Positions 2,742 through 58,466 of a stretch of 64,000 bases of DNA are shown piece by piece. Made by a program: the position numbers and the translations under genes. Position 1 is the stretch's first letter; every line of letters starts with the position of its first letter. Where the stretch lies: NCBI RefSeq assembly GCF_009193175.1, contig NZ_VUKE01000012.1:1-64000 (forward strand), written 5' to 3'. The DNA is from Georgenia ruanii (GTDB lineage Bacteria; Actinomycetota; Actinomycetes; Actinomycetales; Actinomycetaceae). The notes under the pieces were generated by a model. The model saw only the letters and a list, made by a program, of their open reading frames with translations, searched no databases and had not been told where the DNA came from.

Positions 2742-4607
2742 ATGCCGGAGGCAGACACCGAGAGCGAGGAGTCCCTCGGTCGTGCCGCCGCCCCACCAGC
2801 AGGGGCCGCGACGCCGGCCAGCCGGTCCGGGTCCGCCGCTATGCCCGACCCTCCGGACGGCGGCCGGTCATCCGATGACGCCCAGGGCGCTCGGCGGGGG
2901 ACGCCGAGACAGACGCTCTCGCCGAGCGGGTTTGCCGGCGGGCCGCAGGACCTGCGCGAGGGTCCGTCGAAGACCGCTCCTCGCCGGGGCTATTCGCCAC
3001 ACACGGTGTTCTATCGACAGCTCCCGTTCCTGGCGGTCAGCCTGGTCCTCTTGGCGGCAGTCGTGGCCTACGACCCGGTGTACCTGCGCCAGCCGCGCTT
3101 CGGGGCCGGGCTGCTCGTGGCGATCGGTGCCTCGGTGCTGGCGATCGTGGTGCCGTGGCACCGGCTTCCCTCGCCGGCGGCCGTGCTGGTGCCCATGGCC
3201 GACATCGTCGCGGTCGGGCTCGTGGTCGCTGGCGGATACCGCGCCAGCTTCCTCCTCGTGCTGCCCGTGCTGTGGATGTCCGCCGTCCACGGCGCCGCGG
3301 GCGTCGTCGTCTCGGTGGCTGCGGCGACGTTGGCGGTGTGGGGTGGCAACCTCTACGCGCCCTCCATCGCCCTCGGCGACCTGCCCCGGTTGATCCTGCT
3401 GCCCGTCGTCCTCGTCGCCGTGGGGGTCGGCACCTACCTCTCTGAACGTCGCTCGGCTGCCCGGCTCGATCTGCTCGGCCGGCAGAGCGCCCTGATCGAG
3501 GAGACCCTGGCGGACTCCCACCAGCAGAGCCGGCTGCTGGACTCGATTCTCAACACCATCGACGTCGGCGTCGTGGCCCTCGACAAGGACGGGTACATCA
3601 CCATCCTCAACCGCGCTCACGCCGCCGCGGTCGAGGGCCGGCTCAAGGTGGGCGACCACGTCAGCGTCCACGGCGGCATCGACGGCTACGCCGCGGACCG
3701 CAAGACCCCGCTGGGCGCCGGCGGCTCGCCGCTGGTGCGCGCGAGCCGCGGTGAGGACATCGACCGCGAGCTGACCTGGTGGGACCACGGCGAGGGCCGC
3801 TGGATCGCCTACCGGGTCTCCGCGGCCCAGCTCGCCGACGGGGCCGGAAGGCGCGCGGGCGCCGTCGTCGTCTATCAGGACCTCACGGCCGAGATGGCCG
3901 CGCTGGCCCAGCGCGAGGACTTCGTCTCCTCGGTGTCACACGAGCTGCGCACCCCGTTGACGTCGGTGCTGGGCTACCTCGAGCTTGCCGCCGACGAGCC
4001 GACGGCCACCGAGGGCGTGCGGACCCACCTGCGGGTGGCCGAACGCAATGCCGAGCGGCTGCTCCACCTGGTCGCGGACCTCCTCCTCGCGGCGCGCACC
4101 CGCGAGCGCGGGGTCGAGCTGGACCGCTCGATGACCGACCTGCGCAACCTCGTCGCCGAGTCGGTCCAGAGCCAGCTCCCGCACGCCCGCTCGGCGGGCC
4201 TGGAGGTTCGTCACCACCTCACGGAGCCGTGCCGGCTCCTCGGCGACCGGACCCGGCTCGGTCAGGTGATCGACAACGTGCTGTCCAACGCCATCAAGTA
4301 CACCCCGCGGGGAGGGGAGGTCGAGGTGGCGCTGTGGCCGGGCCCGGACGTGGCCCGGCTGACGATCCGCGATACCGGGATCGGCATTGCGGCCGCCGAC
4401 CAGGAGAAGCTCTTCGCCCGCTTCTACCGTGCGCCGGCGGTGCGCCAGGGCTCGGTGCCCGGCACCGGGCTCGGACTGTACCTGTCCCGCCAGATCGTCG
4501 AGGCCCACGGCGGGACCATGGAACTCACCTCGGTCCTGGGCGAGGGCACGAGCGTGGAGATCCTGCTGCCGACGCCGGGTCCGGGCGAACGGGAAACGCG
4601 GCCATGA
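2742..4607 (+). CDS. Membrane-bound PAS sensor histidine kinase
   Basis: A 621-residue class I sensor kinase. Residues 1-85 are Pro/Gly-rich and probably disordered. About six hydrophobic segments follow at 93-232 with no large extracellular domain, then a PAS-like domain (about 262-385, containing DVGVVALDKDGYITILNRA), a HisKA domain with SHELRTPLT (phosphorylated His about H400), and an HATPase_c domain with the N box (DNVLSNAIKYT, about 511-521), DTGIGI (544-549) and GTGLGL (574-579). All ATP-binding boxes are intact. The start is uncertain because no clear ribosome site precedes 2742. The gene overlaps the next one by 4 nt (ATGA). There is no adjacent response regulator; the nearest are the two OmpR-type regulators 5-8 kb downstream, a likely but unproven pairing. 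Confidence 0.88.
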   Translation: MPEADTESEESLGRAAAPPAGAATPASRSGSAAMPDPPDGGRSSDDAQGARRGTPRQTLSPSGFAGGPQDLREGPSKTAPRRGYSPHTVFYRQLPFLAVSLVLLAAVVAYDPVYLRQPRFGAGLLVAIGASVLAIVVPWHRLPSPAAVLVPMADIVAVGLVVAGGYRASFLLVLPVLWMSAVHGAAGVVVSVAAATLAVWGGNLYAPSIALGDLPRLILLPVVLVAVGVGTYLSERRSAARLDLLGRQSALIEETLADSHQQSRLLDSILNTIDVGVVALDKDGYITILNRAHAAAVEGRLKVGDHVSVHGGIDGYAADRKTPLGAGGSPLVRASRGEDIDRELTWWDHGEGRWIAYRVSAAQLADGAGRRAGAVVVYQDLTAEMAALAQREDFVSSVSHELRTPLTSVLGYLELAADEPTATEGVRTHLRVAERNAERLLHLVADLLLAARTRERGVELDRSMTDLRNLVAESVQSQLPHARSAGLEVRHHLTEPCRLLGDRTRLGQVIDNVLSNAIKYTPRGGEVEVALWPGPDVARLTIRDTGIGIAAADQEKLFARFYRAPAVRQGSVPGTGLGLYLSRQIVEAHGGTMELTSVLGEGTSVEILLPTPGPGERETRP

Positions 4608-5788
4608 CGCTGGACCTCTTCTCCCTCCTCGTCGTCTCGGCGCTCGTCATCCTCACCTCGGCGGGGATGTTCGTGGCCGAGGCATGGGCGCGCACGGGTG
4701 ACCTGGTCGACCGGCTCTGGACCCTGTCCTTCGCCGCCGCGATCACGACGGCGCTCGCGTACGTCGTCGGGTCGCTCGCCCCCGAGGGCTGGTGGGCCAA
4801 CGCCATCGGCAACGGGGCGAGCGTGCTCTGCGTGTGGGCGATGTGGAGCGGCATCCGGGCCTATCAGCGCCGGCCGCCCCGCATCGTCCTATCGGCGGGG
4901 TTGGCGCTCGCGGCGGCGGCGGCCGTGCTGCTCCACGGACCCGGTGGTGGTCCCTGGGCCGGTGGGGCGGTGGCCCTGGGCGCCACCGCAGCCGGCGGCC
5001 TGGCCGGTGGCGTCGCGCTCCTGTACGGCCGGCTGCGGGCGGGGCGCGCGACGCTTGTCCTCGCGGTCATCCTGCTCCTCGCCGGTCTGTTCTACGCGGT
5101 GCGGTTCGCGGTGTTCGTCCTCGCCGGTCCGACGTCACCGAGCTTCGAGCGATACCTCGGGACCGCATTTACGACTGTTCTCAACACACTGCTCGTCAAC
5201 GCCGCCGCCTTCGCCGCGGTGACGATGCGTGCCCGCACCGCCCGGGCGAAGGTGGCGGAGGGGCGCAACTTCGATCCGATGACCGGGGCCCGCACCAGCC
5301 ACTCCTTCGAGCCGCGCGCGGCGGCGCAGTTGCGTCGGTCCGCCGAGACCCTGGCCCCGGTCGCGATGGTTCATCTCGTGCCCGACGGAACGGACGCGCT
5401 CGAGGTCGCGTTCGGTCGCGAGGTCGCCGAGCGCGCGCTCGTGACCTGCGGCGAGGTCGCGCAGATGCTGCTGCCGCCCCGGGCGTTGATGGGCCTGGAC
5501 CCGGACGGGCAGGCGTCGTTCCAGGTGCTGCTGCCTGGTTGGGAGGCGGACGACGCCGCGGAGTGGGCGACGGCCGTGCGCCGAGAGCTCATCGCCACGA
5601 CCGTGGAGGTGCCCGGCAGCCATGTGCGCATCGGCGCCTGCGCCGGCGTCGCCACGACCCGCGCGGCGGGCTACGAGCTCGGAGACCTGTGCGACGCCGC
5701 GCGGGCAGCGGCGCAGCGGGCTGTGGGCGACGGCGGGAACCGGGTCGTGGCGGCGGGCACGGAGGAACGCTCCGAGCGCCCCGGGTGA
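4604..5788 (+). CDS. Integral membrane protein with degenerate GGDEF domain
   Basis: 394 residues, ATG at 4604 overlapping the kinase stop. Residues 5-210 form about six or seven membrane segments. Residues 222-385 resemble a diguanylate cyclase: FDPMTGARTSHSFE matches the DPLTGLxNRRxFE opening of GGDEF domains and the end retains helix-rich DLCDAARAAAQRAVGDGGNRV. The place expected for GGDEF reads LDPDGQASF (about 298-306), so the metal- and GTP-binding signature is absent and cyclase activity is unlikely. Translational coupling to the kinase suggests a membrane signalling partner, perhaps a c-di-GMP-independent sensor. The family assignment rests on the fold pattern, not on catalytic residues. 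Confidence 0.7.
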   Translation: MTLDLFSLLVVSALVILTSAGMFVAEAWARTGDLVDRLWTLSFAAAITTALAYVVGSLAPEGWWANAIGNGASVLCVWAMWSGIRAYQRRPPRIVLSAGLALAAAAAVLLHGPGGGPWAGGAVALGATAAGGLAGGVALLYGRLRAGRATLVLAVILLLAGLFYAVRFAVFVLAGPTSPSFERYLGTAFTTVLNTLLVNAAAFAAVTMRARTARAKVAEGRNFDPMTGARTSHSFEPRAAAQLRRSAETLAPVAMVHLVPDGTDALEVAFGREVAERALVTCGEVAQMLLPPRALMGLDPDGQASFQVLLPGWEADDAAEWATAVRRELIATTVEVPGSHVRIGACAGVATTRAAGYELGDLCDAARAAAQRAVGDGGNRVVAAGTEERSERPG

Positions 5789-5803
5789 GGCGATGTGTCC
5801 GGC

Positions 5804-5874
5804 CTTGAGGAAGTGGCGGCAATCTTGAGCCGACCTTGAGGGGACCTGAAGCCGGCGCGGACGGCGTGTTGAGG
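5804..5874 (+). promoter_or_regulatory. Helically phased CTTGAGG repeats upstream of the secreted-protein operon
   Basis: CTTGAGG-like heptamers occur at 5804 (CTTGAGG), 5824 (CTTGAGC), 5835 (CTTGAGG), 5845 (CCTGAAG) and 5868 (GTTGAGG). Spacings are 20, 11, 10 and 23 bp, near multiples of a helical turn. OmpR-family regulators bind direct repeats with about 11-bp period, so this is a candidate site for one of the two regulators of this locus. A single TCACCC lies at 5932-5937, just before the first gene. Confidence 0.5.
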
Positions 5875-5950
5875 CTGAACGGGCATCGTTGCCGACGTCG
5901 CAAGGAGCGGACGCAGCCGCTCGCCAGCCCGTCACCCCGAAGGAATACCG

Positions 5951-6547
5951 ATGTCGCGCACCGCGCCCGCTCAGCCCCGTAGCTCCGCCAGAAAGATGCG
6001 CAAGGGCGTTATTGCCGGCATTGCTGGCATTGCGCTGCTCGCGGGTGGAGGGGCGTCGTTCGCGACGTGGAGTGCCGACTGGACCACCAGCGGAAGGATT
6101 TCTTCCGGCACGATGAGCTTGAAGAGCAGCTGGCAGGGTGAACCGATCTCCCACTGGCAATTGAACGACGCGGACATTGTCGGGATAACGAAGGTCGCCG
6201 ACCTCAAGCTTGTCCCTGGTGACAAGCTCACCTATCGCGACAACATAACGCTGTCGGCCGAGAAGCGCGCCATGTCCGTTAATCTGGAACCGCTCGCTCC
6301 GGGAATTGTGGGGAACCTGCAGGGCGTCACGTACAGCGTCAAGGTCACCGGGCCGGACTTCGAGCGAACTTGGAATGGCCGTGAGAGTAAGCCTATGTCG
6401 ATCGAGACCCGGGCTGGTTCGGATACCGCGATGTCCGTGGTCACGACCTTCACGTTCGACACGGACGCGGACAACAGCACGAAGAATAAGAACCTCACCT
6501 TCACTGACGCGGGCATTCGCGTCACTCAGGTCGCGAACGCGAACTGA
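5951..6547 (+). CDS. Secreted protein with SipW-type (alternate) signal peptide
   Basis: 198 residues. The N-terminus (RKMRKGVIAGIAGIALL then GASFATWSADW) is a SipW-dependent signal peptide of the TasA/camelysin kind, with the typical small-residue stretch followed by a Trp-Ser near the cleavage site. The rest is a beta-rich, Thr/Ser-rich domain of about 150 residues with no cysteine, consistent with an extracellular matrix or fibre-type protein. AAGGAATACCG precedes the ATG. It is the first of three such genes followed by a matching signal peptidase. Its base composition is visibly lower in GC than its neighbours, and a strong hairpin follows it, so it may be made at a higher level than the rest of the operon. 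Fibre formation is inference from TasA. Confidence 0.75.
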   Translation: MSRTAPAQPRSSARKMRKGVIAGIAGIALLAGGGASFATWSADWTTSGRISSGTMSLKSSWQGEPISHWQLNDADIVGITKVADLKLVPGDKLTYRDNITLSAEKRAMSVNLEPLAPGIVGNLQGVTYSVKVTGPDFERTWNGRESKPMSIETRAGSDTAMSVVTTFTFDTDADNSTKNKNLTFTDAGIRVTQVANAN

Positions 6548-6561
6548 GTCGCCCCTGATCT

Positions 6562-6601
6562 GGGGAGGGAGCCGGACGCCCCCCAACCCGGCTCCCTCCC
6601 C
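6562..6601 (+). terminator. Strong hairpin between first and second SipW substrate genes
   Basis: A perfect 14-bp stem (6562-6575 and 6588-6601, GGGGAGGGAGCCGG with its complement) and a 12-nt loop lie 14 nt after the stop. No T-tract follows. It is probably a partial terminator or mRNA stabiliser that lets the first gene be expressed more than the following ones. Confidence 0.75.
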
Positions 6602-6642
6602 GCCTACTGCCCCAAGCTGCTGAGCAGCTGAAGAGGATGATC

Positions 6643-7188
6643 ATGCGCGCCTACGCCATCCGTGGCCTTGTCGCGGTCGCCTTCGTCGTCGTTCTGCTCA
6701 GCAGCAGCCTCGGCAGCACTGCACTGTGGTCCGCGCAGGCCTCCATGTCGTCGGGCCAGGTCACGAGCGGCCAGCTGGACCTCACGCAGGACCCGATGAC
6801 CATCACGCTCAGCCGCGAGGGAACGACGAGGGACGTCTCCACGACCCTGTGTCATGAAGCGCTGCGTCCCGGCGACGTCCTGACGTACCGCGTCCCCGTG
6901 ACGCCAGTTCTCGAGGGCACGCACCTCGAGGCCACCCTCGCACTCGACGTCAGCGGGCTGGTCGTCGGCCCTCTGCGCGACGTCGTGGGCTCGCCCTCGG
7001 TCAGCGTCGAGACCCGGCCGCAAGGCTTGCTCCCCGCCGCCCCCGGCCCGTGGCACGTCACTCCTGCGCTACACGACAAGCTCGTGACCGGTATCGTCAC
7101 GGTCACCATCCCGGAGTCGCTCGGCGGCGAGCATCAGGGACGGACCCTCGAGCCGGGCACCATCCGATGGACCCTGACGCAGGCATGA
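6643..7188 (+). CDS. Secreted protein with SipW-type signal peptide (second)
   Basis: 181 residues from ATG 6643. AAGAGG at 6631-6636 is 6 nt from 6643 but directly touches the alternative ATG at 6637, so the later start is favoured. The leader RAYAIRGLVAVAFVVVLLSS then GSTALWSAQAS repeats the Trp-Ser-Ala signature of the gene before and after it. The mature part is a beta-rich domain with one Cys (LCHEALRPGDVLTYRVPV), reminiscent of the TasA-like fold. The ATGA overlap with the next gene shows translational coupling. Confidence 0.72.
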   Translation: MRAYAIRGLVAVAFVVVLLSSSLGSTALWSAQASMSSGQVTSGQLDLTQDPMTITLSREGTTRDVSTTLCHEALRPGDVLTYRVPVTPVLEGTHLEATLALDVSGLVVGPLRDVVGSPSVSVETRPQGLLPAAPGPWHVTPALHDKLVTGIVTVTIPESLGGEHQGRTLEPGTIRWTLTQA

Positions 7189-8390
7189 CCCCCACTCCGC
7201 GCGACCTCAGGACGAACCGGCGCTCCGCCGTCCGAACCGGTCTCCTCGCCGCGATCGCCGCCGGTGTCTTCGCCATCCTCATGGCCCCAACGACCGGCAC
7301 TCAGGCACGGTGGCACGCGGAGGCGATCGCGCAAACGCCCGCCGCGACCATGGACCAGGTGGCGCTCTCGGTTCCGGCAACCACGTCGGAGCCCGGCACG
7401 ACCATCTCCAACACCGCCCGGGCGACGGCGGTGACGTGGAGACCCGCCGCCCTCACGGTGGCTACCGGCAGCGGAACGTTGCCCGCCGCCGCACTGGCGG
7501 GAACGGCCCTTTCCTATGGCCTCGCGTCTGCAGGAGCATGCCTCAGCGTGACAGCCCGGTGGATGGCTGGGGCCGACCTGACGATCATCCCGGCCGCCGG
7601 GGCTAGCCGCAGTGAGACGTTGGCGCCGGGTGCCTCGACAGCCCTGTGCCTGAGCATCCAACCAGGAGCCGAGCTGCTCGCCAGATACCCCGGCCAGACG
7701 CTGACTCTGACCACCGGCATTGAGGCCCGGGCGGCTGAACCGGCCACCTGGACCGCGCCCCTCGCCACCTGGACGACGACCTTCCATGTCCCCGCCGCAG
7801 CCCTGACCCCGCCCGGCCTGAGCGCCTGCAACGTCAAGTCGCCGAACGAGAAGACAGCGGAGATCAGCTGGACCTGGACTGGCCAAGCCAAGGGCTGGGA
7901 CGTCCTGCAGCGGAAGGGCAGCGAGTGGGTGTCCCTCGGTAAGGATCAGGACCCCTCGGGGAACCACCCGAAGGTTCCGCCGGGTCAGCTGCTGCCCGGT
8001 GACCGGCGCTCCACCACGATCCGCCCGGCCGAGAACAGTGCCGAGGACGTCAAGGTGCGCGTCTACGTCACTGACACCGTCTTCGTCGACAGCACGCAGG
8101 TCTTCACATTCACCGCCAAGCACCCGAGGAACGAGAAGGTCGTCTGCGAGGGCCTGGACTGGGCTACCGCTGACCCAGCAGCCGCCGACGTAGCGCCTGC
8201 AGATGCCGCATCCACGTCCGGCCCGGTCGTGGCGAGCACCGCCCCGTCGGCATCCGCCACACCGGCTCCGGCGGCGACCGCCGCGCCCGCTCCCACGCCA
8301 GCCCCGTCGGCGACCGCTACCACCACGACGCTCACGCTCCCGGCGACCGCCACCGACGCGACCACCGTGCCCGCCACGGAAGGGAAGTAA
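7185..8390 (+). CDS. Large SipW-type secreted protein with Pro/Ala/Thr-rich tail
   Basis: 401 residues from ATG 7185, chosen because it overlaps the previous stop as ATGA; a longer reading frame upstream is a shadow. The signal region (AVRTGLLAAIAAGVFAILMAP then GTQARWHAEA) carries the same Trp-x-Ala cleavage context as its two neighbours. The middle (about 50-320) is beta-rich, including a WTWTGQAKGWDVLQRKGSEW segment that looks like a fibronectin-type or carbohydrate-binding strand region. The last 65 residues are Pro/Ala/Thr repeats typical of cell-wall-spanning linkers. There is no LPxTG plus membrane anchor, so it is probably released or held non-covalently. Its exact function is unknown. 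Confidence 0.68.
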   Translation: MTPTPRDLRTNRRSAVRTGLLAAIAAGVFAILMAPTTGTQARWHAEAIAQTPAATMDQVALSVPATTSEPGTTISNTARATAVTWRPAALTVATGSGTLPAAALAGTALSYGLASAGACLSVTARWMAGADLTIIPAAGASRSETLAPGASTALCLSIQPGAELLARYPGQTLTLTTGIEARAAEPATWTAPLATWTTTFHVPAAALTPPGLSACNVKSPNEKTAEISWTWTGQAKGWDVLQRKGSEWVSLGKDQDPSGNHPKVPPGQLLPGDRRSTTIRPAENSAEDVKVRVYVTDTVFVDSTQVFTFTAKHPRNEKVVCEGLDWATADPAAADVAPADAASTSGPVVASTAPSASATPAPAATAAPAPTPAPSATATTTTLTLPATATDATTVPATEGK

Positions 8391-8394
8391 CTTC

Positions 8395-9171
8395 ATGACC
8401 TCCATCGCCCGTTTCACGGGGAACGTCGTGCTCTGGCTGGTCCTCGCGGCCGTGGCCGCGCTCGCCGCCGTCATGGTGCTCATCCCCCGTGTCATGGGGT
8501 GGGTGCCTCTGACGATCCTGACCGGGTCGATGGACCCCACCATCCCGGCCGGCTCCCAGGTGGTCGTCGAGACCGTCGACGGCGAGGCGGACGCCGCGCA
8601 GCTGACCATCGGGGACGTCATCACCTTCATGCCCCACCCGGACGACCCCACTCTCGTCACCCACCGCATCGTCGCCCGCACCCTCAGCTCGGACGGCACG
8701 GTCTCCTTCACCACCCAGGGCGACGCGAACAACGCCCCGGACGAGTGGACCCTGACCGCCACGCAGATCCGCGGCGTCGTCGAGTACCACGTGCCCTACG
8801 CCGGCTACCTCGCCACCGCGCTGGACGGCTCGCAGAAGCAGACGGGCGTCGGGCTCGCCGCGGCCGCGCTGCTGGCCTACGCCGTCGTCCAGCTGCTCGG
8901 CGCCCTCCGCCAGCACCGCCGTCCCGCGCCCGTCGCGGCGGCCGGCATCGACGCCACCGCCGGCACGGTGACCCGCGAAGCCGCGTCCACGCTCGACGGC
9001 GTTGCACCGGAGCCCTCAGGGGACCACGGCGTCGCCCCCGCCGCCGCCCGCCCCGACGACGGCGCAGCCGCCCCGGCCGGCACCGTCGACCGCGACGCCG
9101 GCGCACGCACCAGCAGCCTTCGCACGCCCCAGGAGCGCACGAGCACACGCGAGCTCGCGGACGCCGCCTGA
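8395..9171 (+). CDS. sipW: Signal peptidase I, SipW/ER type
   Basis: 258 residues. One membrane helix (11-30) is followed by the catalytic serine in LTGSMDPTIPAGS (Ser45) and, instead of the usual lysine, a histidine in LVTHRIVAR (His90); the Ser-His pair defines the archaeal/ER-type SipW class. A second membrane helix lies around 147-170, and the C-terminal 75 residues are Ala/Pro-rich and cytoplasmic. GGAAGGGAAG sits just before the ATG. In Bacillus, SipW processes TasA-like fibre proteins encoded next to it, so the three upstream genes are its probable substrates. The stop overlaps the next start (TGATG). Confidence 0.9.
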   Translation: MTSIARFTGNVVLWLVLAAVAALAAVMVLIPRVMGWVPLTILTGSMDPTIPAGSQVVVETVDGEADAAQLTIGDVITFMPHPDDPTLVTHRIVARTLSSDGTVSFTTQGDANNAPDEWTLTATQIRGVVEYHVPYAGYLATALDGSQKQTGVGLAAAALLAYAVVQLLGALRQHRRPAPVAAAGIDATAGTVTREAASTLDGVAPEPSGDHGVAPAAARPDDGAAAPAGTVDRDAGARTSSLRTPQERTSTRELADAA

Positions 9172-9545
9172 TGAGCGTCGTGCTCAGCCATGGCACGCTG
9201 AGCGCCCTCTCCGACGACCTGGGCGCCGCCGCGGTCTGTTCCTTCGTGCGCCGCTACCTCGACCTCCTCGACGGGCGGGTGCGGGACCTGACCGCGGCGC
9301 TCGCTGGTAGAGACGTCGAGGCGGCGCAGGTGGTGGCGCTGAGCCTGCACAGCGCCAGCGCGATGATCGGGGCCGAGGCGCTCGCCGACGTCGCCCGCGC
9401 GCTCGCGACACAGCTCCGGACCGGCGCGGTGACAGCCGCGCGGCTGGCCCTGTGCGACGTGCCGTCGCTGGCGAGGGCGACGGCGCAGGCGCTGGCCGCG
9501 TTCCTCGCGCCGCCCGCCCCCGTCGCGCTCAGCGCGCGGGCGTGA
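9171..9545 (+). CDS. HPt-fold protein without phospho-His (paralogue 1)
   Basis: 124 residues; ATG overlaps the sipW stop. The whole sequence matches the HPt four-helix plan: an N-terminal helix pair (ALSDDLGAAAVCSFVRRYLDLLDGRVRDLTAAL), the helix with the signature (VVALSLHSASAMIGAEALADV) and a C-terminal helix. In HPt domains the phosphorylated His is ten residues before the Gly of the L/IGA motif; here that position is Leu57, while a His is found three residues later (His60) where Lys is usual. It is therefore unlikely to act as a normal phosphotransfer protein. Its 3' end overlaps regulator gene 9529-10344 on the other strand by 17 bp. Confidence 0.7.
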   Translation: MSVVLSHGTLSALSDDLGAAAVCSFVRRYLDLLDGRVRDLTAALAGRDVEAAQVVALSLHSASAMIGAEALADVARALATQLRTGAVTAARLALCDVPSLARATAQALAAFLAPPAPVALSARA

Positions 9546-10344
9546 GCCGATAGCCGGTGCCCCGGACGGTCTCGATGAACCGCGGCCGACTGGCGTTGTC
9601 GCCGAGCTTGCGACGCAGGTTCGCGATGTGGACCTCCACCGCCCGCTTGTCGGCGCCGGTGACGACCGCGCCGGTGCCGTAGTCCTCCGGCCACAGGTCC
9701 CGGACCAATTCGCTCTTGGGCAGCACCCGCCGCGGGGCGGCGAGCAGCGCCGCGAGCAGGTCGAACTCGGTGCGCGTCAGGTGCACCGGCGCGCCGTCGA
9801 GGTCGACGGTGCGGGCGCCGACGTCGACGTGCACCCCGTTGTGGGCGAGGACGCCGTCGCCGTCGGGCTGGGCGAGCACGACCTGGACGGGCGTCGCGGC
9901 GCTTTCCGAGAGCGCGATCGGCGCCGGGGCGGTGCTCGCGGAGGCGGGCGCGGCCGGGCCGGCCAACTGCCGCGGCCGGCGGAGCATGGCCTGGATCCGG
10001 GCCCGCAGCTCCCGCGGCCGGAACGGCTTGGTGACGTAGTCGTCGGCGCCGGCGTCCAGCCCCATGAGGGTGTCGATCTCCTCGTCGCGGGCGGTGAGCA
10101 TGACGATGTAGGTCCCCGAGAAGGTGCGCACCCGGCGGGCGACCTCGAACCCGTCGATGTCCGGCAGGGACACGTCGAGCGTGGTGACCTGCGGGCTGTG
10201 CTCGCGCACCAGCTCCACGCCGGCGGTGCCGGTGCCCGCGGCGTGCACGGCGAACCCTGCCTGCGTCAGGACGGAGACGAGGAGCTCGCGGATGTCCCCG
10301 TCGTCCTCGACGACCACTGCCGCCCGCGGCTCGCAGTCCTCCAT
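9529..10344 (-). CDS. OmpR/PhoB-family response regulator (paralogue 1)
   Basis: 271 residues. The receiver domain (8-122) has the acidic pair ED14D15, phosphorylation site Asp57 (TTLDVSLPD), Thr84 and Lys106 (VTKPF), so it is competent for phosphorylation. An Ala/Pro-rich linker of about 45 residues separates it from a winged-helix domain (about 170-271, HLTRTEFDLLAALLA, VEVHIANLRRKLGD, VRGTGYRL). It is about 60% identical by eye to the regulator at 11631-12605, and both are bracketed by HPt-fold genes. Its start faces the HPt gene at 10625 across a 280-bp divergent region with paired palindromes. It may be the partner of the kinase at 2742. Confidence 0.9.
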   Translation of the reverse strand: MEDCEPRAAVVVEDDGDIRELLVSVLTQAGFAVHAAGTGTAGVELVREHSPQVTTLDVSLPDIDGFEVARRVRTFSGTYIVMLTARDEEIDTLMGLDAGADDYVTKPFRPRELRARIQAMLRRPRQLAGPAAPASASTAPAPIALSESAATPVQVVLAQPDGDGVLAHNGVHVDVGARTVDLDGAPVHLTRTEFDLLAALLAAPRRVLPKSELVRDLWPEDYGTGAVVTGADKRAVEVHIANLRRKLGDNASRPRFIETVRGTGYRLTPAR

Positions 10345-10442
10345 GGACCCAACCTACTTGCTGCTTCCGAAAAACTCCTGGGAGAGCGGCGGAGATCTCG
10401 CCAGTGCGGCACCACGACGGCCTACCGAGGGAAGCGCACCTC

Positions 10443-10527
10443 AGAACGCCACAAGTGGGGCTGGAGTGACGTATGTGGCGGAGATCAGGGCCTCCGGCCG
10501 CCTCACCCGCACCACTTGTGGTGTTCT
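10443..10527. promoter_or_regulatory. Paired 19-bp inverted operator-like sites
   Basis: AGAACGCCACAAGTGGGGC (10443-10461) and its near inverse complement (10509-10527) match at 17 of 19 bases. Each copy contains a dyad of its own, CCAC-AA-GTGG and CCAC-TT-GTGG. They lie 47 bp apart in the divergent promoter region between the first regulator and the second HPt-fold gene, as expected for a dimeric regulator bound at two sites. Confidence 0.5.
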
Positions 10528-10624
10528 CGGCTTTGTGTCGAGGCACCGGGCGACGGCGCACGCGCCGGCGGTCGCGGCGCGTGCGCGCATGCCCCTTCCG
10601 GACGACGGCGGTACGCTCCCGGCG

Positions 10625-11014
10625 ATGAACGAGCCCGGCTGGCACGAACCGCCCCGCGTCACATCGGTGCTGCGCACCGATGCCCTGGACGCGCTGGCTG
10701 CCGATGTCGGAGCCGGCGAAGCCGAGCTTTTCGCCGGGCGATACCTGGCCCTCCTGGAGCAGCGGGTCGGCAACCTCCGCCAGGCAGCGGAGACGGCGGA
10801 CGCCACCGGTGTCCGCGAGGCGGCGCTCAGCCTGCAGACGACCTCGGCCATGATCGGTGCCGAGGCGCTCGCGGGCACGGTCGCCGCGCTGCCGACGGTC
10901 GCCGGGTCCGTGGTGGGGGAGTCGGTGGCGGAGGTCGAGGTGGTCGCGGCGGTGACCACCGGCGCGCTGGTGGCGCGCGCGTCCGCCGCGATCCCGGTCG
11001 GCGCGGGCGCCTGA
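10625..11014 (+). CDS. HPt-fold protein without phospho-His (paralogue 2)
   Basis: 129 residues from ATG 10625; an earlier ATG at 10589 is possible, and neither has a clear ribosome site. The core (VLRTDALDALAADVGAG, FAGRYLALLEQRVGNLRQA, EAALSLQTTSAMIGAEALAGTV) aligns along its length with the protein at 9171-9545, sharing the exact SAMIGAEALA segment. The phospho-His position is Leu68, and even the His found three residues later in paralogue 1 is Gln71 here. The C-terminal helix is shorter and Val/Ala-rich. The function is unknown; it may bind the receiver domain of a regulator without phosphotransfer. Confidence 0.65.
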   Translation: MNEPGWHEPPRVTSVLRTDALDALAADVGAGEAELFAGRYLALLEQRVGNLRQAAETADATGVREAALSLQTTSAMIGAEALAGTVAALPTVAGSVVGESVAEVEVVAAVTTGALVARASAAIPVGAGA

Positions 11015-11036
11015 CGCCGGCGAAGCCCGGGATCTC

Positions 11037-11064
11037 GCTGTTTGACGCATCCGCTGTTTGACGC
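11037..11064 (+). repeat. 12-bp direct repeat with 16-bp period
   Basis: GCTGTTTGACGC occurs at 11037-11048 and 11053-11064, separated by ATCC. TGACGC also occurs at 11012-11017. The repeat sits just after the second HPt gene and upstream of the third. It may be a regulator site, or the two TTGACG-like elements may be alternative -35 boxes. Confidence 0.35.
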
Positions 11065-11119
11065 TCAGGGCTCAGGCGTCCTGGCTGACGCGTCGCAGCT
11101 GGTACGCCCGCGGCCCGAC

Positions 11120-11191
11120 TCACCCGGCGCCATGCCCGCCCTCACCCTGATCCCCGCAGGGTGAACACGGTCGTTCATCCTCGGATCACCT
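11120..11191 (+). promoter_or_regulatory. TCACCC box array upstream of third HPt gene
   Basis: TCACCC at 11120-11125 and 11142-11147, its inverse GGGTGA at 11159-11164, and TCACCT at 11186-11191. The pair TCACCCT/AGGGTGA (11142-11148, 11158-11164) forms a dyad. The array upstream of the fourth HPt gene has the same order, and the distance from the inverted box to TCACCT is 27 bp in both. The last box is 111 bp before the GTG start. Confidence 0.5.
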
Positions 11192-11296
11192 TGCCGAACG
11201 ACAAATCGGCGGGTGGCCGTCCTGGTGTCCTGTCGTAGCCGGGGGGACCCGTCCGCGGCCGTATTGCCGCGTACGACCGGACATGAAAGGCGTGGC

Positions 11297-11680
11297 GTGG
11301 AGGAGATCATCGACCGCGGGGCGCTGGCCGCGCTCGTCGACGACATCGGTACCGAGCGGGTCCAAACCATCGTGGGCAGCTACCTCGCCACGTTGGACGA
11401 GCGGGTGTATCACCTGCGCGCCGCGCTGGTCGCGTGTGACACCGAACGCGCGCTCATCGCGCTGCGGGGGCTGGGCAGCGCCAGCACGCTCGTGGGCGCG
11501 CAGCAGCTGGCGGAGATCGTCCGGGAGGTCGAGCCCGCGCTCGCCAACGGCAGCGACGGCCCGGCCCGGGCCGCCCTGCCCGAACTCATGCTGAGCGCGG
11601 CGGCCACGACCGGCGTGCTCCTCGCCGTGCTCAGCGAGCCGGCACCAGCCGGTAGCCGACGCCCCGCACGGTCTCGATGA
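11297..11680 (+). CDS. HPt-fold protein without phospho-His (paralogue 3)
   Basis: 127 residues starting at GTG 11297, with AAAGG at 11286-11290 six bases before it. The sequence follows the HPt helix plan closely: ALAALVDDIGTERVQTIVGSYLATLDERVYHLRAAL, then ALIALRGLGSASTLVGAQQLAEIVREVE, then ARAALPELMLSAAATTGVLLAVL. The residue ten before the VGA Gly, where HPt proteins carry the phosphorylated His, is Arg57, and the usual Lys-Gly is Gly-Ser. Its 3' end overlaps the second regulator gene by 50 bp on the opposite strand, the same tail-to-tail arrangement as paralogue 1. Confidence 0.7.
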   Translation: MEEIIDRGALAALVDDIGTERVQTIVGSYLATLDERVYHLRAALVACDTERALIALRGLGSASTLVGAQQLAEIVREVEPALANGSDGPARAALPELMLSAAATTGVLLAVLSEPAPAGSRRPARSR

Positions 11681-12605
11681 ATCGCGGGCGGGCGGCATCG
11701 TCGCCGAGCTTGCGGCGCAGGTTGGCCATGTGGACCTCGAGGCTGCGGCGGTCGGCGCCCGCGAGGGGCGCCGCGTAGCTGGTGCCCCACAGGGACTCCA
11801 CCAGCTCGGTCTTGGCCCGGACGACGCCCGGGGCCGTGAGCAGGGCGGCCAGCAGCGTGAACTCGGTCGGCGTGAGGTGGACCTCCGCGCCGTCGACGAA
11901 GACCTGGCGGGCGTCGACGTCGAGGCGCAGGCCGGCGGGGGCAGCCAGGGTCGCCGTCCGGGACGCGGCCGCGGTGGCAACAAGCGGTGGGACAGCCGTG
12001 ATCGGGCCGAGGCCCGACGCCACGGCGGCGACCGGACCGGGGCTCGGCGCCCTGGCGGTGATCGGGCCGGGGGATACCGATGGGGCCGTGGCGGCCGGGC
12101 TGGGGGCGGCCGCCACGGCGCCCGGTGCGGGCAGCGCGAGGCTCGGTGCGGGCAGCGCGAGGCTCGGTGCGGCCAGCGCGAGGCTCGGCCGCGCGGGCGC
12201 CACCGCGGCGCGCGTGGTCCCGAGGTGGCGCGGCCGGCGCAGCATCGCCTCCACCCGGGCGCGCAGCTCACGGGGCCGGAAGGGCTTGGTGACGTAGTCG
12301 TCCGCGCCGGACTCCAGGCCCAGCAGCGTGTCCACCTCGTCGGTGTGCGCGGTGAGCATGACGAGGTACGTCGCCGAGAACGCCCGGATCCGCCGGGCCA
12401 CCTCGAAGCCGTCGATGTCCGGCAGGGAGATGTCCAGCGTGGTCACCAACGGCTCGTGGCTCCGCACCAGCTCGACGCCCGCGTGCCCGGTCGCCGCCGG
12501 GTGCACCACGAACCCGGCCTGGGTCAGCACCGCGACGAGAAGCCCGCGAATGTCGTCGTCGTCCTCGACGACGACCGCCGTGCGGTGCTCCACGAATCCG
12601 GACAT
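11631..12605 (-). CDS. OmpR/PhoB-family response regulator with long Ala/Pro linker (paralogue 2)
   Basis: 324 residues from ATG 12605, chosen because MSGFVEHRTAVVVEDDDD then aligns with the first regulator; no good ribosome site is seen. The receiver is complete: D15/D16, Asp58 (TTLDISLPD), Thr85, Lys107 (VTKPF). The winged helix is at about 225-324 (HLTPTEFTLLAALL, EVHMANLRRKLGDD, VRGVGYRL). Between them lies a linker of about 95 residues made of Ala/Pro/Ser with heptad-like PSLALPA repeats, several times longer than the usual OmpR linker. It is paralogous to 9529-10344 and divergent from the fourth HPt gene. Confidence 0.88.
   Translation of the reverse strand: MSGFVEHRTAVVVEDDDDIRGLLVAVLTQAGFVVHPAATGHAGVELVRSHEPLVTTLDISLPDIDGFEVARRIRAFSATYLVMLTAHTDEVDTLLGLESGADDYVTKPFRPRELRARVEAMLRRPRHLGTTRAAVAPARPSLALAAPSLALPAPSLALPAPGAVAAAPSPAATAPSVSPGPITARAPSPGPVAAVASGLGPITAVPPLVATAAASRTATLAAPAGLRLDVDARQVFVDGAEVHLTPTEFTLLAALLTAPGVVRAKTELVESLWGTSYAAPLAGADRRSLEVHMANLRRKLGDDAARPRFIETVRGVGYRLVPAR
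12124..12186 (-). repeat. Three tandem 21-bp repeats in the regulator linker
   Basis: The unit GGTGCGGGCAGCGCGAGGCT plus C is repeated three times, the third copy with one change. Each copy encodes seven residues (PSLALPA) of the inter-domain linker of the second response regulator. The length is a multiple of three, so copy-number change would lengthen or shorten the linker without a frameshift. Confidence 0.85.
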
Positions 12606-12718
12606 CAATCGGGAGATTACTACGGGCCCGACACCCGCATTCGATTTCCGTGCGCCCATGTCGCCGCAGGTCGCAGGGCACGGAGGGCTGGTCCCGGTGG
12701 GAGACGTTGCCGGTGGCG

Positions 12719-12791
12719 TCACCCCGGAGCCAGGGCCGTTCACCCCGGAAAACAGCCGGGGTGAACGGCGGTAATCATCTGGGATTCACCT
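12719..12791. promoter_or_regulatory. TCACCC box array and 13-bp dyad upstream of fourth HPt gene
   Basis: TCACCC at 12719-12724 and 12740-12745, GGGTGA at 12759-12764, TCACCT at 12786-12791. CCGTTCACCCCGG (12736-12748) and its exact complement (12756-12768) form a 13-bp inverted repeat with a 7-nt centre. The region lies between divergently transcribed genes, so an operator is more likely than a terminator. Box order and spacing match 11120-11191. Confidence 0.55.
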
Positions 12792-12888
12792 ACGCGTCGG
12801 CATTTTCCCAAATTGGTCAGGTGGTGTGCTGAAGCGCATCCCCGATAGGGGGCGCAACGTCGTGCCGAGCAGGGGGAGAGGGAGCGCG

Positions 12889-13254
12889 ATGAATCGGGTG
12901 GTGGACCCCGCGGTGCTGACGGCGCTGCAGCAGGAGGCCGGCGCCGATCGCGCCCGGGAGATCGTCGCGCGCTACCTCGCCACGCTCGAGGAGCGGCTGT
13001 ACATGCTGCGCGGCGCGGTCGCCGCCTACAACAGTGCCGGCGCGCTGGTCACCCTGCGGGGCCTGAGCGAGGCCAGCACCGTCGTCGGCGCGCACCAGCT
13101 CGGCCAGCTCGCCGACTCCCTCGAGCCGGCCCTGCGGCGCGGCAACTTTCGCCCCGCCCGCGACGCGCTGCCCGAGCTGCTGCAGCTGGTGGCCGCGACC
13201 AAGTCCGCCCTCGCCCCGGTGCTCGACCCGAGCGCGGTCCGCACCGCGCCGTGA
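12889..13254 (+). CDS. HPt-fold protein without phospho-His (paralogue 4)
   Basis: 121 residues from ATG 12889, preceded by GGGAGAGGGAG. It is closest to paralogue 3: AREIVARYLATLEERLYMLRGAV, LVTLRGLSEASTVVGAHQLGQLADSLEPAL, ARDALPELLQLVAATKSALAPVL. The residue at the phospho-His position is Arg57, as in paralogue 3. The only His in the signature helix is two residues after the VGA motif, on a different part of the helix. It ends the signalling locus; a small hairpin and the convergent IclR gene follow. Confidence 0.7.
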   Translation: MNRVVDPAVLTALQQEAGADRAREIVARYLATLEERLYMLRGAVAAYNSAGALVTLRGLSEASTVVGAHQLGQLADSLEPALRRGNFRPARDALPELLQLVAATKSALAPVLDPSAVRTAP

Positions 13255-14252: not shown

Positions 14253-15110
14253 TCACCCGACTGCGGCGGCCGACGACGGCGCCGCGTCCGACGACGGCGC
14301 AGCGCCCGGCGCCGACACCGGGCGCCCGCCCAGCTCGGCCTCCAGGTCGGCGGCGAGATCGCGCACGACCTGCTCGAACAGCAGCCGGCCCTTCGCCGCG
14401 TCGGCCCCGCGGGGCGCGGACAGGCACCCCGACGACGGCGTGCGGGCGGGCACCACGGGGAGCCGGTCGAACCGGGGCAGCTGCGCCGGGTCGTGGTCCA
14501 CCACCCGGTCCATGCGCACGAGCTGGGGCTCCAGGTGCAGCATGAGCGCCGTCTCCAGGACGCCCCCGTGCTCGACGTCCCAGCCGGGGAACGACCCGTG
14601 GTAGACCGCCTCCAGCGTCTCCTCCGAGACGTAGTCCCAGTAGGACAGCAGCAGCACGCACCGGGCGTCGTCGGCCCCGATCCCCAGGTCGCGGACGGCG
14701 AGGTCGACGCCCTCGTAGAGGAACTGGTAGTTCTCGTAGTGGCCGTTGACGAGCACCACGTGCCGCACGCCCTGCTCGAGCAGGCTGCGCACGAGGCTGC
14801 GGGTGAGGCCGATCAGCGTCGCCGCGTCCACGCTCGTGGTCCCCACGAGGTGGTCCCCGCCGCCGGACTTCTGCTGGGAGCGGTAGCCGTACGTGATCGG
14901 CTGGGCCACGCGCGCCCCGGTGGCGGCGGCCACCGCCAGCGCGATGCGCTCGGACAGGATCGCGTCGGTGCCCATGGGCAGGTGCGGGCCGTGCTGCTCC
15001 AGCGCCCCCACGGGCACCAGGACGGTCGCGTCGCCGGCTCCCACCCAGTCGGCGAAGCTGTGGGCGTCGAGGTGGGCGAGCTTGACCTGGGGGTTGTCGT
15101 GCGTCGTCAT
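14253..15110 (-). CDS. crnA: Creatininase (creatinine amidohydrolase)
   Basis: 285 residues from ATG 15110 with AGGAG five bases before. Creatininase interconverts creatinine and creatine in the cytoplasm using a binuclear metal site. Ligands known from the Pseudomonas enzyme are visible: Glu38 and His40 in VGALEQHGPHLP, Asp49 in MGTDA, His124 and Glu126 in VNGHYEN. The NGHYEN form, rather than the NGHGGN of other family members, together with Trp158 (SYWDYV), Trp177 and His181 (GWDVEHGG), supports a true creatininase. The C-terminal 25 residues are a low-complexity Ser/Ala/Pro tail. It lies 11 bp downstream of the BCCT remnant on the same strand as creatinase. Confidence 0.92.
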   Translation of the reverse strand: MTTHDNPQVKLAHLDAHSFADWVGAGDATVLVPVGALEQHGPHLPMGTDAILSERIALAVAAATGARVAQPITYGYRSQQKSGGGDHLVGTTSVDAATLIGLTRSLVRSLLEQGVRHVVLVNGHYENYQFLYEGVDLAVRDLGIGADDARCVLLLSYWDYVSEETLEAVYHGSFPGWDVEHGGVLETALMLHLEPQLVRMDRVVDHDPAQLPRFDRLPVVPARTPSSGCLSAPRGADAAKGRLLFEQVVRDLAADLEAELGGRPVSAPGAAPSSDAAPSSAAAVG

Positions 15111-15120
15111 GATGCTCCTG

Positions 15121-15474
15121 TCAGCTGCGGGTGGGGGAGGTGGGCGGGGCGGGGACGGCGGGCGCGGTGTGCTGGGCACCGGATCCTGGCGCAGCGACCG
15201 CCTCCGGCGCCAGGGGGAGGCCGTCGGCGTCGACCAGGTCGTCGCCGGGGCGGTGGCGCGGGTCGTTGACCTCCTTCTCGAGCTGCCGGACCGCCTTGTC
15301 CCGGCAGCGCAGGCGCCGCACCAGGGTGGCGATCATCAGCAGGATGACGAAGGAGAACGGGAACGCGCCGATGATCGTGCCGGTCTGCACGGTGTCCACC
15401 ACGGCCGTCCCGCCGAGGGAGAGCAGCAGCAGCGCCACCGCGCCGATGCTCACCACGAGCACCACGCGGAAGCC
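15121..15474 (-). pseudogene. C-terminal remnant of a BCCT-type transporter
   Basis: About 118 residues are recognisable: RVVLVVSIGAVALLLLSLGG, then TVQTGTIIGAFPFSFVILLM and a charged tail. This is the pattern of the last two membrane helices of betaine/carnitine/choline transporters, normally about 500-600 residues. Upstream the frame stays open only as Pro-rich sequence, 34-36-bp repeats and antisense to creatinase, with no further membrane helices. The first about 400 residues are therefore missing. Its place between creatininase and creatinase suggests the locus once had a creatinine, creatine or betaine uptake gene. It could alternatively be a short independent membrane protein. Confidence 0.65.
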
Positions 15475-58286: not shown

Positions 58287-58449
58287 ACCGAACCCTGCCG
58301 CCGTCCGGAGCCGTTCGACTACGCACCGCGGCAGGGGCGGGGGACCCACATCCGGTCCTGGCCCGGCCAGGACCTTGGGGTGAAGCGCGGCCCACCGGGA
58401 CGCGCCGGGTGAACTCCACACCCGAACCCGACAGCTCACCCCGCAGGCT
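58287..58449 (+). ncRNA. c-di-AMP riboswitch (ydaO-yuaA type)
   Basis: The leader carries the conserved blocks in order: ACCGAACCCTGCCG, GTCCGGAGCCG, GGCAGGGGCGGGGGACCCAC, TTGGGGTGAAGCG, GCCGGGTGAACTC and ACCCGAACCCGACAGCTCAC followed by CCCGCAGG. This is the signature of the ydaO class, which binds c-di-AMP and in actinobacteria typically precedes cell-wall hydrolase genes. It lies 18 nt before the start of the NlpC/P60 gene. c-di-AMP binding is expected to switch expression off. The limits are approximate. Confidence 0.88.
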
Positions 58450-58466
58450 TCCAGGAGAGGTAGTTC

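Follow-up and report, generated by a model that had tools for sequence, protein, structure and literature searches.

Within the window analysed here, the first 64,000 nucleotides (nt) of the forward strand of contig NZ_VUKE01000012.1 of Georgenia ruanii, a locus at 2742-13254 encodes a sensor histidine kinase, a SipW-type signal peptidase with candidate secreted substrates, two OmpR-type response regulators and four proteins that resemble histidine phosphotransfer (HPt) domains without their His. We lean towards reading these four as members of a phosphorylation-dead HPt family (pHPt) that docks onto a dedicated response regulator at its receiver (REC) domain. On the best reading of the sequences, pHPt would connect such a regulator with matrix-export machines, SipW in this locus, and would do so without transferring phosphate. 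Support at the sequence level comes from conservation, loss of the His, the fold predicted for pHPt1, a gene for an intact REC that is often paired with pHPt, and fusions.

Loss of the phosphorylatable histidine

When the domains are aligned on the invariant Gly of their motif, the His is lost in 97 of the 98 pHPt domains that score above 55 bits with a search model built from 20 pHPt sequences. Leu takes its place in 64 domains, Gly in 9 and Arg in 8, followed by Val, Ile, Ala, Asp, Met and Gln, and the one remaining His is in locus L074. The HPts of hybrid kinases found by the same model keep their His in 6/6 cases, which shows that the model can pick up domains with this residue. Below 55 bits, and outside the 98, lie more standalone frames, some of them His-less (e.g. 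L124, L127, L128 and L133) and three with His (L098, L130 and L137). A count of 100 domains, used below, adds two long frames, L112 (Glu at the site) and L116 (Leu).

The four window proteins carry Leu (pHPt1 and pHPt2) or Arg (pHPt3 and pHPt4) at this place, and a hidden Markov model alignment to HptB of Pseudomonas aeruginosa sets the HptB His on the Leu of pHPt1. The AlphaFold model of pHPt1, the one window pHPt that was modelled, is a confident HPt four-helix bundle (pLDDT 88.5) whose top PDB matches are all HPt proteins, HptB being the best (7c1i, TM 0.84). In canonical HPts, a Lys one turn after the His sits beside the phosphoryl group; a basic residue is kept one turn after the lost His in 61/98 pHPt domains and would suit the reading of a phosphorylated REC.

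Pairing with a receiver gene

We mapped 80 loci picked for holding a pHPt, counting close relatives each (e.g. L045/L046 and L052/L060/L062/L064) and omitting L037 and L038, which duplicate L041 and L048; gene starts in these maps are approximate, and 3' ends were taken from stop-to-stop frames. A REC gene lies tail-to-tail with the pHPt in 58/80 loci (convergent, -150 to +300 nt). Under a looser limit, in an earlier locus set, a convergent REC stands beside 54/81 pHPt open reading frames (ORFs; >40 bits) as against 25/1032 other genes, an imperfect control because the loci are centred on the pHPt, which already occupies the place beside the regulator.

The phosphorylation residues (D, D, D, T/S, K) are kept in all 69 paired RECs. 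The pair in L126, which faces a true hybrid-kinase HPt, was dropped afterwards, leaving 68 pairs whose coding 3' ends range from a 53-nt overlap to a 111-nt gap. In a tree, the 68 paired RECs group together in a single clade (SH-aLRT 99) that excludes an outgroup of 11 other OmpR regulators, all from the Georgenia ruanii genome. Distances between pHPts and between their RECs correlate (r 0.77 in family f1 and 0.76 in family f5), with 0/2000 within-family shuffles as high. When shuffling was restricted to the 11 multi-pair genomes, r was 0.405 against a mean of 0.324, a value reached by 1/3000 shuffles. Outside these pairs, L078 has a short REC-type gene (14954-15328; 125 aa by gene calling) that faces a kinase gene and not the standalone pHPt there. 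More pHPt genes lie several kb off the regulator at L045:15642-15980 and L046:16089-16427, both with Asp at the His place, and at L048:7492-7821, with Leu.

Fusions to SipW and to a glycosyltransferase

In nine ORFs (L045, L046, L052, L060, L062, L064, L113, L117 and L120) the pHPt is fused in frame to the C terminus of SipW. Two hydrophobic segments precede it in 9/9, so the fused pHPt is probably cytoplasmic. An internal Met precedes the pHPt in the L045 and L046 fusions, where separate initiation is possible. The regulators beside five of the fusions fall in two separate places in the REC tree. In all four mapped genomes of genus g9, SipW is missing from the kinase-regulator-pHPt locus, and the genome encodes a SipW-pHPt fusion at another place, an arrangement that suits a partner acting in trans.

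At 12 further loci, spread over three family codes, the pHPt is C-terminal on a family-2 membrane glycosyltransferase of family NF053846 (XrtP-associated glycosyltransferase); 11/12 pass the family cut-off and the twelfth (G250) is a split frame. All 12 fusions face a REC-only protein without a DNA-binding domain (128-150 residues from the match start), whereas none of the other 56 pairs has a REC-only partner, their regulators measuring 250-338 residues. All 12 also have a kinase gene on their own strand in the fetched stretch. With the DNA-binding domain missing, the enzyme is the only evident output of these loci, which we regard as the strongest clue. The split frame among the 12, at locus L087, runs across two overlapping ORFs (8317-10283) and is the sole such case.

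Conservation and surface contexts

The pHPts are present in 9/9 genomes of the genus examined, which excludes chance occurrence. Each of the nine has a locus with histidine kinase, GGDEF protein, substrate-like genes, SipW, pHPt and regulator, and the neighbourhood is rearranged or partial in three other genera of the family; the conservation for which the preliminary description of this DNA had called as a check is thus borne out. The layout of four pHPts and two regulators recurs in G002 and G007, and the mapped stretches of the other genus genomes hold one regulator and two or three pHPts. Across the order, the pHPt model matches in 71/396 genomes (E 1e-3, weak hybrid-kinase matches counted in). 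In a 396-genome sample of the phylum, matches above 70 bits are confined to the order; elsewhere they score 30-65 bits, mostly in long frames that we take for hybrid kinases. A plasmid search gave just two weak Arthrobacter matches (57% and 59% of the query, at 39% and 36% identity), one annotated 'hypothetical protein' and the other unannotated, and a viral fold search gave no useful match. Family f5 is perhaps Arthrobacter-like.

Two other origins of the pHPt frames were considered and rejected. As antisense artefacts of the regulator genes they would not fit, given short 3' overlaps, codon scoring that calls the window's four coding, and conservation; and the conserved motif and the pairing speak against decaying relics.

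A surface context (SipW, Tad, glycosyltransferase, or Peptidase_M73 or TIGR04089-like substrates) lies beside the pHPt in 56/80 loci and 46/54 genomes. A Tad/Flp pilus operon adjoins eight loci, all in family f5, and a Peptidase_M73 (camelysin/TasA family) protein is encoded in seven, six of them with SipW; the L099 Peptidase_M73 protein passes the SipW signal model TIGR04088. By-eye comparison places a pHPt within 5 kb of a TIGR04089 match in at least 12 of the 72 order genomes that have such a match. The preliminary description proposed a dedicated circuit controlling a SipW-dependent matrix. That idea is partly supported, as context, by a SipW linkage that recurs in other families and as fusions, but it is too narrow: the glycosyltransferase and Tad contexts rule out a SipW-only function of pHPt. 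The gene cluster in the window may build surface fibres.

Two further contexts stood out. In family f5, kinase-regulator-pHPt modules at L058, L069, L072 and L076 have McrBC restriction genes as neighbours, and all but one of these modules are also near a Vsr-like gene. In L079 and L081 (family f19), a kinase-GGDEF pair without SipW lies beside a pHPt and a regulator; the GGDEF motif is missing there too, even though the protein in L079 scores above the cut-off of the GGDEF family, at 42.6 bits.

Proposed role of pHPt and alternatives

We infer that pHPt binds REC on two grounds: a simple assay shows HPt proteins binding to REC domains, and no other shared partner offers itself in these contexts; according to PMC11903765, the plant proteins AHP1-5 bind ARR1 with a KD of 94-174 nM. 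From what is known of the families, the membrane kinase would phosphorylate RR1 and RR2. By analogy with the SipW-pHPt fusions of relatives, pHPt1 would hold or read a regulator at or near SipW, the docking site being carried by SipW or made beside it, and the regulator could be kept at the export machine until its release, or act on that machine. RR1 and RR2 might then control the substrate-SipW genes, with the extra pHPts serving as soluble competitors that set a threshold. The direction of effect could be activation or sequestration alike. The preliminary description took the HPt-like proteins for non-catalytic modulators of the regulators, and this is the best-supported reading. Relatives carry the dead domain on fibre-processing and sugar-polymer enzymes, mostly with a matching regulator gene alongside, and this points to a new route by which signals may reach matrix construction. 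More tentatively, and with the balance slightly against it, there may be a hitherto unrecognised branch of two-component output in which a phosphorylated REC would switch matrix machines directly through a phosphorylation-dead HPt receptor, built on the machine (exopolysaccharide-type glycosyltransferase, SipW) or encoded beside it (Tad pilus), in several families of one actinobacterial order.

Several observations weigh against docking onto a dedicated regulator. No convergent REC gene is found in 22/80 loci, including 4/9 SipW fusions, and some partners would therefore have to act in trans; in 24/80 loci the surroundings hold none of the surface genes (SipW, Tad, glycosyltransferase, substrate). 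A true HPt, in a hybrid kinase and with its His kept, also lies tail-to-tail with a short REC of 155 residues (L126:9737-10234). The REC tree was built from few columns and its outgroup branches are long, and co-inheritance of linked neighbours by itself raises the distance correlation. Finally, pHPt1 and 12/98 domains in all carry a His one helical turn past the lost one, where phosphorylation is possible.

Alternatively, the pHPts might be purely soluble antagonists that occupy kinase or regulator and damp signalling, their link to SipW being mere operon membership. AHP6 is a His-less inhibitor of this kind (PMC7402358, PMC11903765), 79/100 pHPt domains are standalone, and four copies per two regulators would suit titration; yet the in-frame fusions to SipW and the glycosyltransferase and the REC-only partners of the latter are left unexplained, and we think soluble antagonism unlikely. 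We give still less credence to the idea that pHPt serves SipW and the glycosyltransferase as a module for structure or assembly, while the regulator encoded beside it would govern transcription of the cluster and never touch the pHPt. Four SipW-pHPt loci without a regulator in the fetched stretch (L075, L099, L102 and L108) fit such a module, but pHPt-regulator pairs without either enzyme are common (15 of the 24 loci without surface context have a convergent REC), and the REC-only partners lack a DNA-binding domain.

Two other explanations seem very improbable to us. In one, the pHPts would still be phosphotransfer proteins through the displaced His of pHPt1 and its like, a use for which Caulobacter HmrB, proposed in PMC11481889 as an atypical HPt that lacks the HxxKG motif and uses other His residues, might be a precedent; however, 80/98 domains, three of the four window pHPts included, have no His at all between motif positions -13 and -3. 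In the other, the tail-to-tail layout would act at the RNA level, overlapping 3' ends making regulator and pHPt transcripts mutually antisense. The closeness of the coding 3' ends in the 68 pairs speaks for this, but many pairs do not overlap and the fusions put pHPt on other proteins; an RNA-level effect would in any case be compatible with docking.

If pHPt is a REC-docking receptor, two-component control of matrix assembly could proceed by direct contact and not by transcription or cyclic di-GMP (c-di-GMP), and a domain annotated for phosphotransfer would gain a second, non-catalytic use in bacteria. On the more tentative reading, in which REC switches the machines directly, REC-only proteins with glycosyltransferase-pHPt fusions would make up a complete signalling route without a DNA-binding step. 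The fusions (12 to glycosyltransferase, 9 to SipW) name the partner in advance, and the way in which surface fibres, polysaccharides and pili may be turned on in actinobacteria would become open to experiment.

Relation to known systems

Cellulose synthase with its PilZ domain is a familiar case of a polysaccharide synthase in the membrane that has a regulatory domain as part of it, and the ligand there is c-di-GMP; the proposed ligand of pHPt differs in being a REC protein. The glycosyltransferase that bears pHPt in the 12 fusions belongs to a family most of whose members' genomes have no pHPt on it: at E 1e-40, NF053846 is found in 38/396 order genomes, 12 of the 38 with pHPt. The SipW-TasA/TapA operon of Bacillus resembles the window locus in placing a SipW-type peptidase beside substrates with SipW-type signal regions, but is not known to include an HPt or to lie next to a kinase/OmpR pair.

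In the plant protein AHP6, Asn replaces the His, and we know of no fusion of AHP6 to membrane enzymes and no genetic pairing with one REC gene. AHP6 shares with pHPt the replacement of the phosphorylatable His and is described as an inhibitor in a two-component network (PMC7402358, PMC11903765). HptB-HsbR of Pseudomonas aeruginosa also combines an HPt with a partner regulator gene, in biofilm control according to PMC5085249; unlike pHPt, HptB keeps its His and transfers phosphate. HmrB of Caulobacter crescentus belongs to a surface-attachment pathway and, as PMC11481889 presents it, forms a helical hairpin proposed to dimerise and loses function when His is replaced, whereas the pHPts fold as four-helix HPt bundles and for the most part lack a His at that place.

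In searches of the open-access literature, pseudo-HPt terms gave plant papers alone, and no title or abstract linked an HPt with SipW, with Tad pili or with a glycosyltransferase, which is not proof of absence. Two bacterial papers contain the phrase 'lacks the conserved histidine' and, in the passages concerned, use it of kinase domains and not of HPt domains; one of the two is the Caulobacter paper that proposes HmrB. No bacterial counterpart of the pHPt system turned up in these searches, and there is an open chance that it is more novel than a variant of known systems.

The locus in the Georgenia ruanii window

The locus opens with a same-strand run from the kinase gene to pHPt1, with several overlaps of 1-4 nt, and continues with plus-strand pHPts alternating with minus-strand regulators (Table 1). 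The 3' ends overlap in both pHPt1/RR1 and pHPt3/RR2. The DNA-binding domains of RR1 and RR2 are identical at 67/102 residues, and the block of two regulators and four pHPts looks like a duplicated unit of one regulator and two pHPts. Gene calling places the translation start of pHPt3 probably nearer 11297 and favours 12605 over 12743 for that of RR2.

Table 1. Genes of the signalling-secretion locus, with positions in the window
Feature	Position	Strand	Evidence
Sensor histidine kinase	2742..4607	+	Hydrophobic N-terminal segments (hydropathy), weak PAS, HisKA, HATPase_c (Pfam); kept in genus
Membrane protein with degenerate GGDEF	4604..5788	+	Pfam GGDEF 21.7 bits, cut-off 23.8; 4-nt overlap with kinase gene
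S1, SipW-type secreted protein	5951..6547	+	TIGR04089 78.2 bits, cut-off 60
S2, SipW-type secreted protein	6637..7188	+	TIGR04089 59.4 bits, 0.6 below cut-off
S3, probable SipW-type secreted protein	7185..8390	+	No family match; one N-terminal hydrophobic segment, position, overlap with S2
SipW/archaeal-type signal peptidase	8395..9171	+	TIGR02228 79.1 (cut-off 51.85); PF10502 29.4; two hydrophobic segments
pHPt1, His-less HPt protein	9171..9545	+	PF01627 29.8; fold model; His to Leu; start overlaps SipW stop (TGATG)
RR1, OmpR-type response regulator	9529..10344	-	Pfam, REC residues; convergent with pHPt1
pHPt2, His-less HPt protein	10625..11014	+	PF01627 19.8 (below cut-off); His to Leu; divergent from RR1
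pHPt3, His-less HPt protein	11213..11680	+	PF01627 15.8 (below cut-off); His to Arg; convergent with RR2
RR2, OmpR-type response regulator	11631..12605	-	Pfam; Pro/Ala-rich linker between domains
pHPt4, His-less HPt protein	12889..13254	+	PF01627 21.8 (below cut-off); His to Arg; divergent from RR2

The gene content named in the preliminary description is confirmed, each piece lying where it had been placed. The kinase is coupled to a degenerate GGDEF protein as it had said; the latter has six hydrophobic segments, and the GG(D/E)EF active-site motif is missing in 16/16 homologous ORFs scanned, the window protein among them. RR1 and RR2 are phosphorylatable OmpR regulators by their full REC set (D, D, D, T/S, K) and OmpR-type (winged-helix) DNA-binding domains; with HisKA and HATPase domains in the kinase, the locus has the make-up of an OmpR-type two-component system. 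The signal peptidase is of the SipW type by TIGR02228 and scores 82.9 with the Bacillus equivalog NF046067, below that model's cut-off of 190; its long C-terminal tail is taken to be cytoplasmic. Its homologue in G. thermotolerans NBRC 104148 is 76% identical; the match in Georgenia sp. SYP-B2076 is shorter, with 79% identity.

Two counts need qualifying. Three SipW-type secreted proteins had been claimed: S1 stands, S2 falls just short of the TIGR04089 cut-off, and S3 is assigned by its signal region and position only. Structure prediction for S1 gave a model too weak to show a TasA fold. The four His-less HPt proteins all lack the His as claimed, but at the PF01627 cut-off of 24.6 pHPt1 alone passes. 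Beyond these four, the genome has one strong PF01627 match (an 853-aa frame on contig C7) and one weak match (C31).

Between RR1 and pHPt2 lie two perfect inverted copies of GAACNCCACAAGTGG (10444-10458 on the plus strand and 10512-10526 on the minus strand); anything else in the window that matches it does so with three mismatches. As a candidate regulator site it was dropped, with 0 matches in the nearest relative (L037) and two imperfect ones in L047. Elsewhere in the window, a 5S rRNA gene lies at the very start (3-119), a DDE transposase gene (PF01609; 503-1960) just upstream of the locus, and a c-di-AMP riboswitch of the ydaO/yuaA type at 58314-58464 (59.4 bits).

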